Positions 25,629 through 27,196 of a stretch of DNA of 64,000 nt are shown piece after piece. Location: positions 186,001 through 250,000 of the forward strand of contig NZ_FNJO01000004.1 in the NCBI RefSeq assembly GCF_900104095.1, given 5' to 3'. The stretch's first letter is position 1. Each line of letters starts with the position of its first letter. The notes under the pieces were generated by a model. It did not search any database, was not told where the DNA came from, and saw nothing but the letters and a program-made list of their open reading frames with translations. The stretch comes from Ralstonia sp. 25mfcol4.1 (lineage in GTDB: Bacteria > Pseudomonadota > Gammaproteobacteria > Burkholderiales > Burkholderiaceae). Position numbers and translations under genes: made by a program.

Positions 25629-26726
25629 TTAGCGGGCAGCGGCCTCCACGGCCTCGGCCCGCTCCGCCACGATGCGCAGGCGGTCGAAATTCATGTTCGC
25701 CCCGGACGTGATGGCCACCAGCGCCCGCCGTCCCCCTTCCGGCAGACGATCCGCATACTGCTTCAGCCCCGCCAGTGCCAGCGCACCGGCCGGTTCCACC
25801 AGGCTCCGGGTGTCCTGGAAGATATCCTTGATGGCCGCGCACAGCGCGTCCGTATCCACCGTGAGCACGCCGTCGAGCAGATGCCGGCATAGCCGGAAGG
25901 TCTCCTCGCCCACGCGCTTGACCGCCGTACCATCGGAAAACAGCCCCACCGAATCCAGCGTCACGCGCTCGCCGGCCGCCAGCGAACGGGCCATCGCGCA
26001 CGAATCCTCGGTCTGCACGCCGATGACCTGAACCTCCGGGCGCACCGCCTTGACATAGGCCGCCACGCCAGCCGCCAGGCTGCCGCCCCCGATCGGCACG
26101 AACACGGCATCGAGCGCACCGCGATGCTGGCGCAGGATCTCCATGCCCACCGTGCCCTGCCCGGCGATCACGTCGGGATCGTCAAAGGCCGGGATGAAAG
26201 TCAGCGCCTGCTCACGCTGCAGGGCCATCGCATGGTCATAGGCATCGGAATATGACTCGCCGGCCTGTACCACCTCCACCATCTCGCCGCCATGGGCGCG
26301 TACGGCATCCACCTTGACCTGGGGCGCGGTCTGCGGCACCACGATGACCGCCCGCACGCCGAGCCGCGCCGCCGACAGCGCCACCCCCTGGGCATGGTTG
26401 CCGGCCGACGCCGTGATTACGCCGCGCGCCAGCGCCTCGGCCGGCAGGTTGGCCATCTTGTTGTAGGCGCCACGCACCTTGAACGAGAACACGGGCTGAT
26501 GGTCCTCGCGCTTGAGCCAGACCTGGTGGCCCAGGCGCGCCGACAATGTCGGCGCCAGGTCGAGCGGCGTTTCGCGCGCCACGTCGTAGACGCGGGCGGT
26601 CAGGATCCGTCTCAGGTAGTCATCTGCATCGATCGCATCGGCATCTGCCCGCAGGAGCCCGGAAGCTGCGCCGGCGGCGGCATGCCGGGGGGTGGCGGGG
26701 ACGGCGGAAACCGGGGATTGCGGCAT
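25629..26726 (-). CDS. ilvA: Threonine ammonia-lyase, catalytic domain only
   Basis: A 365-residue PLP enzyme deaminating L-threonine to 2-oxobutyrate, the entry step of isoleucine synthesis. The PLP lysine is K83 in SFKVRGAYN; the phosphate-binding loop is IGGGSLAAG and the serine-type loop ASAGNHAQGVA. The protein ends right after the catalytic fold: the two C-terminal ACT-like domains that bind isoleucine in the roughly 510-residue IlvA are missing. An AGGAG ribosome site lies 6 bases before the ATG. Upstream is a complete attenuator with an Ile-coding leader peptide, which argues for a biosynthetic rather than purely catabolic (TdcB-like) role. Confidence 0.93.
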   Translation of the reverse strand: MPQSPVSAVPATPRHAAAGAASGLLRADADAIDADDYLRRILTARVYDVARETPLDLAPTLSARLGHQVWLKREDHQPVFSFKVRGAYNKMANLPAEALARGVITASAGNHAQGVALSAARLGVRAVIVVPQTAPQVKVDAVRAHGGEMVEVVQAGESYSDAYDHAMALQREQALTFIPAFDDPDVIAGQGTVGMEILRQHRGALDAVFVPIGGGSLAAGVAAYVKAVRPEVQVIGVQTEDSCAMARSLAAGERVTLDSVGLFSDGTAVKRVGEETFRLCRHLLDGVLTVDTDALCAAIKDIFQDTRSLVEPAGALALAGLKQYADRLPEGGRRALVAITSGANMNFDRLRIVAERAEAVEAAAR

Positions 26727-26771
26727 GGAACGCTCCTGTCTGAATGTGGGGGTTCCCCAGGAGGCGGCCAC

Positions 26772-26797
26772 AAAAAACCCGCCTCGTTGGGCGGGTT
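26772..26797 (-). terminator. Attenuator terminator of the threonine ammonia-lyase leader
   Basis: On the minus strand AACCCGCC pairs with GGCGGGTT around a 6-base loop (stem 26790-26797 with 26776-26783) and is followed by four more T. This is a textbook intrinsic terminator placed 45 bases before the ilvA start codon rather than after a gene, which is why I read it as an attenuator. Confidence 0.9.
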
Positions 26798-26846
26798 GTT
26801 GTTGTCTGTTCCGGACGCGCGCTAACCCACCATTCGAGGAATGGTG
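26776..26846 (-). promoter_or_regulatory. Isoleucine attenuator: pause, antiterminator and terminator segments
   Basis: Four RNA segments are visible on the minus strand. 1:2 is a pause hairpin, CACCATT with AATGGTG (26828-26846), lying over the last leader codons. 2:3 is an alternative pairing in which GGTGGGTT (26824-26831) can pair with the terminator's left arm AACCCGCC (26790-26797) over 8 bp with one G-U. 3:4 is the terminator. A ribosome stalled on the Ile codons would free segment 2 to form 2:3 and allow transcription into ilvA. Confidence 0.82.
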
Positions 26847-26884
26847 CGAATAATCGCGATGTTGTGCAGGCCGAAACAGGTCAT
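26822..26884 (-). CDS. ilvL: Isoleucine/threonine-rich leader peptide of ilvA
   Basis: The 20-codon frame (ATG at 26882-26884, TAG at 26822-26824) encodes a peptide whose middle reads NIAIIRTIPR. Four of 20 codons are isoleucine, with two threonine, one leucine and one valine. It lies 95 bases before ilvA, overlaps the pause hairpin and precedes an intrinsic terminator, the architecture of known amino-acid operon leaders. There is no Shine-Dalgarno sequence. A TTGACA box at 26916-26921 and a weak -10 would place the transcript start at or next to the ATG, so the leader may be translated from a leaderless message. Confidence 0.8.
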   Translation of the reverse strand: MTCFGLHNIAIIRTIPRMVG

Positions 26885-27196
26885 GGCGTCGAGTGTCACG
26901 GATTTATGCACATTGTGTCAATCCCGGCGATGTTCGGCCGCACGGCGTCCCCGGCCGCCTGTTGCGGCCGCGCCGATTCCCGCAATCCGTTTCCCCATGC
27001 GGTGTTCAGGCGGACGCAAGCTCGTATTAGAATCGCCGTTGTCGTCACGTCCGGCCCCGTTGAAGCCAGAGGTCATGTTCCGGGTTGGATATCCGCCCCG
27101 GACTGGTTTTGTCCCACGGGCAGCCGGCGCTTCAGTTCCATAAGAATCCATCCGATATCTGTCCTGCGTCCACGGGACTTCGGGCATAACAGATAC
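26885..27196. promoter_or_regulatory. Divergent promoter region, ilvA leader / GGDEF-EAL gene
   Basis: This 312-base gap must hold the promoters of the ilvA leader (minus) and the cyclic-di-GMP gene (plus). For the minus direction a perfect TTGACA lies at 26916-26921. I found no convincing -10 for the plus direction, although AT-rich steps occur near 27025-27030. Apart from these I see nothing. Confidence 0.5.

Follow-up and report, generated by a model that had tools for sequence, protein, structure and literature searches.

Classical amino-acid leader attenuators, such as those of the E. coli ilvGMEDA, trp, his and thr operons, are built from a leader peptide with control codons, a pause hairpin, an antiterminator and a terminator. 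The same parts, with the antiterminator as a predicted pairing, are present on the minus strand of the window, the 64,000-nucleotide stretch of Ralstonia sp. 25mfcol4.1 DNA analysed here, where they separate a divergent GGDEF/EAL frame from a second copy of ilvA. The element is more compact than the classical examples, its predicted transcript leaving no space for a Shine-Dalgarno sequence, and differs from them also in that it and its relatives precede lone spare genes or short operons, drawn from three families that are unrelated to one another, rather than a pathway operon. In Sinorhizobium meliloti the trpL attenuator RNA (rnTrpL) is described as starting with the leader ATG itself (PMC7298713), as is predicted here from promoter spacing; rnTrpL has Trp codons and precedes trpE(G), whereas the element here has Ile codons and precedes ilvA, DUF4440 or kinase genes.

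The same RNA is also present in Rfam, as the element is a gathering-score match to family RF00624, 'Pseudomonas sRNA P9' (P9 hereafter), the consensus of which includes AUU AUU ... GGCGGGUUAG ... AACCCGCC/GGCGGGUU. Compared from its name, type and description alone, the family is labelled an sRNA gene, with leader peptide, antiterminator and target gene unnamed, whereas here it looks like a cis-acting attenuator. By comparison of its members P9 is predicted to be first of all an isoleucine leader attenuator, and we think it very likely that the member in the window controls a spare threonine ammonia-lyase, presumably a feedback-deaf one, by ribosome-mediated attenuation in response to isoleucine. 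The mechanism class is known, and what appears to be new is a likely function for an Rfam family, a probable leaderless start, the three gene families behind the element and the repeated loss of a protein domain. In the literature covered (including PMC6321483, PMC3349714, PMC2965389, PMC5150637, PMC1262725, PMC7298713 and PMC3901761) neither P9 as an attenuator nor an ilvA attenuator in these groups was found; an earlier prediction, for example in a 2004 survey of proteobacterial attenuators (FEMS Microbiol Lett), is possible.

The earlier note on this DNA described a complete isoleucine attenuator, and each of its parts is found (Table 1): a leader peptide with an Ile core, a pause hairpin over the last leader codons, an alternative pairing between the 3′ half of that hairpin and the left arm of the terminator, and a terminator with a U-tract before ilvA. 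The computed fold of the pause hairpin gains one pair beyond the 7 bp, and the first control codon starts 8 nt ahead of the pause arm. The P9 match spans the whole model (positions 1–74 of 74) and is the only RF00624 match in the source genome. Folding of the element gives z = −3.35, with 1 of 200 shuffles equally stable, and the isolated parts have energies of −8.7 (pause), −13.9 (terminator) and −12.3 kcal/mol (antiterminator duplex). A chance terminator was set aside in view of the Rfam match and the fold statistics, and a terminator serving a plus-strand gene was rejected as the divergent GGDEF/EAL gene, judged from its frame, starts beyond it.

Table 1. Features of the P9 element and the adjoining ilvA, in window positions.
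Feature	Position	Strand	Basis and remarks
-35 box TTGACA	26916..26921	-	perfect in 50/59 upstream stretches scored, the window's included
-10-like GACACT	26892..26897	-	18 nt after -35 and 7 nt before leader ATG; weak, 3/6 to TATAAT
Leader peptide MTCFGLHNIAIIRTIPRMVG, 20 codons + stop TAG	26822..26884	-	ATG 26884-26882, TAG 26824-26822; compared with 45 distinct related leaders
Ile-Ile control codons ATT ATT	26849..26854	-	codon comparison, 45 distinct leaders
Pause hairpin CACCATT (26846-26840) / AATGGTG (26834-26828), 7 bp	26828..26846	-	pairing and covariation
Antiterminator 5′ arm GGTGGGTT	26824..26831	-	pairs with 26797-26790, 8 bp, one G-U
Arm AACCCGCC, common to the antiterminator (as 3′ arm) and the terminator (as 5′ arm)	26790..26797	-	pairing
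Intrinsic terminator AACCCGCC / GGCGGGTT (26783-26776) with U-tract 26777-26772	26772..26797	-	pairing
Rfam RF00624 P9 match	26774..26857	-	53.5 bits, gathering score 43, E 1.4e-8 for the window (cmscan)
Second ilvA copy with the catalytic domain alone, 365 aa if read from the inferred ATG	25629..26726	-	PALP only; TIGR01124

A covariance search over relatives, which the earlier note had proposed as a check, is positive, with leader, Ile codons, pause hairpin, antiterminator and terminator recurring together. Relatives that kept ilvA and had lost the codons and pairings would have spoken against the note, and in the window's genus 24/24 intact second copies of ilvA keep the element. In a set of 45 distinct leaders ending in Val-Gly, of which three precede kinase genes, ATT is used at the two control positions in 45/45 and 44/45 leaders, although it accounts for 15% of the Ile codons in 36 long ORFs of the window. 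Codon −13 is Ile in 34/45 of these leaders, as ATC in 17 and ATT in 17, so that at this position it is the amino acid, not the base, that is conserved. The Ile pair is, in these comparisons, conserved at the level of the bases. The distance from the Ile pair to the stop, anchored on the first match, is 33 nt in 59 of 69 rows, and five of the other ten have an extra Ile codon upstream. Certain kinase-type leaders have two Ile codons only, and five of 65 Pseudomonadaceae leaders (L261, L267, L269, L272 and L275) have Met-Ile-Met and no Ile pair. The last five read Met-Ile-Met-Thr-Ala-Ile and all precede a short IlvA; a shift or weakening of the control codons is possible.

Pairing was evaluated in 68 aligned elements, with loci L181–L185 and identical rows excluded. 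The pause hairpin is paired in 92.4% of cells, and there are 30 cells with changes on both sides versus 7.0 in shuffles (0/500 as high), mostly from kinase-type elements with G-C in place of A-U. Of the five measures used, the number of pairs changed on both sides (3) and that of further pair types (9) are not above shuffles. The antiterminator arm is paired with 26797–26790 in 96.1% of cells, compared with at most 65.3% when slid, and has no both-sided changes because both arms hardly vary. The terminator is paired in 99.6% of cells and has three cells with both-sided changes. A possible outer stem that would lengthen the pause hairpin is not claimed: 73.1% of its cells are paired and 14 are changed on both sides versus 5.2 in shuffles, but slid versions reach up to 23.

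A transcript start downstream of 26797 would not fit the earlier note's reading, and there is a conserved promoter-like pair upstream of the leader from which an upstream start is predicted. In the 50 Burkholderiaceae stretches with TTGACA the best −10-like hexamer ends 6–8 nt before the leader ATG in all 50 and at 7 nt in 46. The nine Burkholderiaceae stretches without a perfect TTGACA are kinase-type and have weaker matches, five of them also at 7 nt; the best scores in this family have a mean of 8.7 of 12, versus 6.4 in shuffles. For 36/58 Pseudomonadaceae stretches the best-scoring pair has its end at −7, −8 or −9, with 2.7% of shuffles at −7; the count at −7 itself (23/58) is an undercount as the inner ATG was used at some loci (L258, L264 and similar), where the outer ATG follows a TAGATT box. 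Nine Pseudomonadaceae loci of the DUF4440-kinase type have no such promoter (best score 5–6 of 12). Many of the sequences scanned in the two families are close relatives. Because the −10-like box ends ~7 nt before the leader AUG, the leader RNA is probably leaderless, and transcription is predicted to begin at the leader ATG or 1 nt ahead of it.

The genes behind P9 were compared using Rfam searches of 249 Burkholderiaceae genomes, 148 Pseudomonadaceae genomes, a class-wide sample of 369 genomes and 14 control genomes, the last of which have no RF00624 match. P9 matches are present in 65/249 Burkholderiaceae genomes at 70 places, 69 of which were analysed. All 56 over the cut-off have the Ile pair at the same position and precede either ilvA (47, with L100, which lies at a contig end, assigned from the N-terminus) or a kinase gene (9); seven of the 13 below the cut-off precede the kinase gene, one (L180) a GNAT gene, and five have no Ile pair. 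The kinase frame of one locus, L173, looks disrupted. In Pseudomonadaceae there are matches in 70/148 genomes at 74 places, 73 of which were analysed (one of 28.4 bits was left out), and the 66 over the cut-off precede ilvA (43), DUF4440 then ilvA (11) or DUF4440 then the kinase (12). Two of the seven below the cut-off precede DUF4440, and the other five (<30 bits) none of the three genes. Pooling both families, 122/122 places over the cut-off precede ilvA, DUF4440 and/or the AAA_33 kinase gene on the same strand, with ilvA, alone or after DUF4440, behind 101 of them (47 in Burkholderiaceae and 54 in Pseudomonadaceae). Beyond what the earlier note had described, the element not only has an Rfam entry with another meaning but also precedes genes without a known role in isoleucine synthesis.

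In the class-wide sample 20 genomes match at 22 places, and the four reaching the cut-off are that in the window and three before DUF4440. Among the 18 below it, L206 is before an AAA_33 gene and L191 before another P-loop gene; none of the three partner genes was recognised at the remaining 16. Ten weak places (L181–L185 and L294–L298) were rejected as they have no Ile pair or no known partner gene. A pattern of the RNA chassis that contains no Ile codon (GGYGGGWTAGC, AACCCGCC and GGCGGGTT) is found at 11 places in 10 of 398 genomes of the phylum, compared with none in the 398 for a reversed control pattern. All 11 have an Ile-pair leader before ilvA, DUF4440 or the kinase; five are already in the Rfam searches (G000, G002, G020 twice, and G626) and six are new. 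Examples of the partner genes were named by Pfam and NCBIfam (AAA_33, DUF4440, SgcJ/EcaC family) and the other loci assigned by tblastn. In a sequence search of solved structures the DUF4440 protein matches YybH (2gxf), and no relative of the kinase was found.

Several individual loci are informative. In a P. aeruginosa record P9 (89.8 bits, leader MTFATLLTRRSIITAIPAMAG), SgcJ/EcaC and ilvA are found in this order, and we take the two genes to be PA1325 and PA1326. A table in PMC5150637 includes PA1325 and PA1326 (ilvA2). Azotobacter chroococcum plasmid pAcX50f (L217) has a P9-like leader, MSALSFFIFIITTVRLMVG, before an SgcJ/EcaC gene and one for an ATP-binding protein, and the GNAT acetyltransferase gene at L180 is preceded by a P9-like element of 32.3 bits with the leader MQRAPTTTLLIIRAHLPTGG (read by eye). 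In several draft genomes of groups g20 and g11 (L096, L099, L100, L106, L107, L109–L111 and L117) the contig breaks off inside ilvA, ~180–500 bp past P9, a sign that the same genomes probably have further copies of this stretch. A possible variant with a different amino acid is seen in four plasmid records from Rhizobium, Sinorhizobium and Agrobacterium (L210, L329, L330 and L331), all four with leuS behind a short leader with a run of Leu codons (LLLLALV, ILLLG, LLLS). The chassis in all four is nearly that of P9 (GGTGGGTTAGCG or GGTGGGTTAACG ... CCCGCC ... GGCGGGTT), and at three of them the leader ends before GGTGGG. L210 scores below the RF00624 cut-off. The leuS leaders may represent the same RNA frame with swapped control codons, or convergence.

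The open frame of the ilvA gene behind the element extends for 380 aa from a GTG at 26771 that adjoins the U-tract; the ATG at 26726, which lies behind AGGAG, is the likelier start. The product was described in the earlier note as an ACT-less threonine ammonia-lyase, and it does have the PALP domain alone; the regulatory domain Thr_dehydrat_C (PF00585) is absent by Pfam, and is present in the canonical IlvA of the same genome, the gene for which has no P9. The protein resembles the biosynthetic IlvA with two C-terminal ACT-like subdomains (TIGR01124) in that its catalytic domain scores above the family cut-off (515.2 bits vs 411.3, covering model positions 1–322 of 499), and differs from it in the missing PF00585; the TdcB model gives 260 bits, under its cut-off of 453. 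In 11 comparisons, pN is 0.026–0.118 versus a pS of 0.117–0.531, which points to purifying selection. Judged from its domains, the short IlvA is presumably feedback-deaf, that is, a threonine ammonia-lyase without feedback by isoleucine. Cupriavidus metallidurans CH34 (NC_007974.2) has the same pair of RNA-level control and domain-less IlvA.

Second copies of ilvA go together with P9 in the sets compared. In 60 genomes of the window's genus there are 24 intact second copies and one that is broken (L142), and all 25 have P9; twelve of the intact copies are short and twelve full length, all 12 short ones keeping P9. The broken copy is in two pieces with an internal stop, and its P9 still scores 55.6 bits. 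A short copy is also present in another Burkholderiaceae genus (L168). Two IlvA matches are found in 50 of 148 Pseudomonadaceae genomes, each of which also belongs to the 54 in which P9 precedes ilvA; the remaining four of the 54 are truncated by contig ends or contain masked letters. The 54 P9-controlled copies include 20 that are complete and short (336–385 aa), 10 complete and full length, 15 that exceed 484 aa before the locus ends, and nine cut or masked too early. Without P9 there are 81 complete copies, none of them short (counted from the start of the match, all have 498 aa or more), with domain presence judged by length and Pfam run on five proteins only; 78 count as distinct, since L051 and L144 have too little upstream sequence for P9 to be judged and L065 and L143 are the same contig. 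Absence of P9 was judged by pattern, with 20 named loci and L003 also checked with Rfam; the regular expression missed L116 and L139, in both of which Rfam finds P9.

In a tree of 123 catalytic domains the short copies occur only among P9 copies, with three changes needed, and the short IlvA of the window falls among two-ACT copies; 82 of the 124 input rows are P9 copies that we chose, and the association of P9 with domain loss is not a formal test. The free tree implies three ACT losses, which we did not adopt: a single clade for the Pseudomonadaceae copies is not rejected (p 0.52), and we therefore claim only that the regulatory domain was lost at least twice, in separate lineages, such losses being seen, within the sets analysed by sequence, only in P9-controlled copies. 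The P9 copies are also second copies, and may have lost the domain for that reason alone. On the tree those of Pseudomonadaceae are placed next to their own canonical copies and those of Burkholderiaceae inside their own family, with one Alcaligenaceae copy (L010) among the latter. The P9 label requires six changes on the tree (seven in a rebuilt tree), so that the attenuator is shared beyond a single gene lineage. Among the 80 best named protein relatives, P9 is found by pattern in four, all confirmed by Rfam; most of the other 76 are canonical copies, and in the 20 of these put to Rfam P9 was found in none. Four loci (L009, L011, L013 and L018) are among P9 copies in the tree and have no P9, which implies a gain or loss of the element in that part of the tree.

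We propose that transcription begins at or next to the leader AUG, such that a ribosome would load on a nearly leaderless RNA. When Ile-tRNA is charged the ribosome would reach the stop codon and cover GGUGGGUU, and the terminator would form before ilvA. When it is uncharged the ribosome would stall on AUU AUU and mask the pause arm, and GGUGGGUU would be freed to pair with AACCCGCC, allowing the polymerase to read into ilvA. Given the usual footprint of a ribosome, one at the first control codon would cover the pause arm and one at the stop would cover GGUGGGUU, in keeping with classical attenuation. The attenuator interpretation of the earlier note is thus supported, with its parts recurring before ilvA and two other gene types; its second element, that ilvA expression responds to isoleucine shortage, is what we infer from the sequence. 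Several observations count against this reading: the same element precedes DUF4440 and kinase genes, which are not known to be linked to isoleucine; five leaders have Met-Ile-Met and certain kinase-type leaders just two Ile codons; the antiterminator has no compensatory change, and two pause measures are not above shuffles; the −10-like box is weak and the nine DUF4440-kinase loci have no such promoter; and four loci among P9 copies in the tree have no P9.

Three other explanations deserve consideration. P9 could be a trans-acting sRNA as in Rfam, with the terminator ending an independent sRNA gene and the proximity of ilvA incidental. The Rfam type ('Gene') and name point this way, termination would leave a leader RNA of ~110 nt, and rnTrpL is an example of a terminated attenuator transcript that is active in trans (PMC7298713). 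However, the context is too constant for an sRNA acting purely in trans, which we set aside: at every one of the 122 places over the cut-off P9 is followed, in the same orientation, by members of the one set of three gene types, the leader ORF is conserved with its Ile codons, and so is the antiterminator pairing, which is relevant only to read-through. We consider this explanation highly improbable. The attenuator could instead sense general trouble in translation, such as that caused by ribosome-targeting antibiotics, which would account for the kinase and DUF4440 genes. Some resistance genes have attenuators that respond to ribosome stalling, and the element is common to genes of unknown role. 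But ilvA, alone or after DUF4440, lies behind 101 of the 122 places, and the Ile codons are the conserved coding feature, with synonymous change at one position, so that a general sensor seems improbable.

The remaining alternative concerns the enzyme rather than the RNA, and holds that the short IlvA is a catabolic, TdcB-type protein or a decaying copy, with the attenuator a relic. A catalytic domain alone is described as the layout of catabolic enzymes (PMC3901761), and one relative, L142, is broken. The window's protein nevertheless passes the TIGR01124 cut-off (515 bits over 411) and not that for TdcB (260 under 453), falls among two-ACT copies in the tree, and belongs to a genus in which 12/12 intact short copies keep P9. 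A decaying gene was set aside in view of the purifying selection (the pN and pS values of the 11 comparisons above), and we regard this alternative, too, as improbable. An isoleucine attenuator in front of a spare threonine ammonia-lyase is the reading we prefer.

More tentatively, and with rather less than even confidence, P9 could be a portable cassette of promoter and leaderless leader that reads the charging of Ile-tRNA and has been placed repeatedly before spare genes, such that allostery of the enzyme is replaced by control of the gene through Ile-tRNA, with the DUF4440 and AAA_33 proteins acting in the same emergency response. If so, the short enzyme would be at work while isoleucine or a look-alike inhibits the main IlvA although charged Ile-tRNA is missing, as for example in the presence of isoleucyl-tRNA synthetase inhibitors, and the DUF4440 protein and AAA_33 kinase would be unrecognised parts of that response. 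The comparison suggests a likely function for an Rfam family so far listed as a small RNA only, and would tie two uncharacterised protein families to isoleucine supply. It also amounts to a natural experiment, the enzyme having lost its feedback domain where RNA-level control is present, and makes directly testable the old question of whether attenuation can replace allostery.
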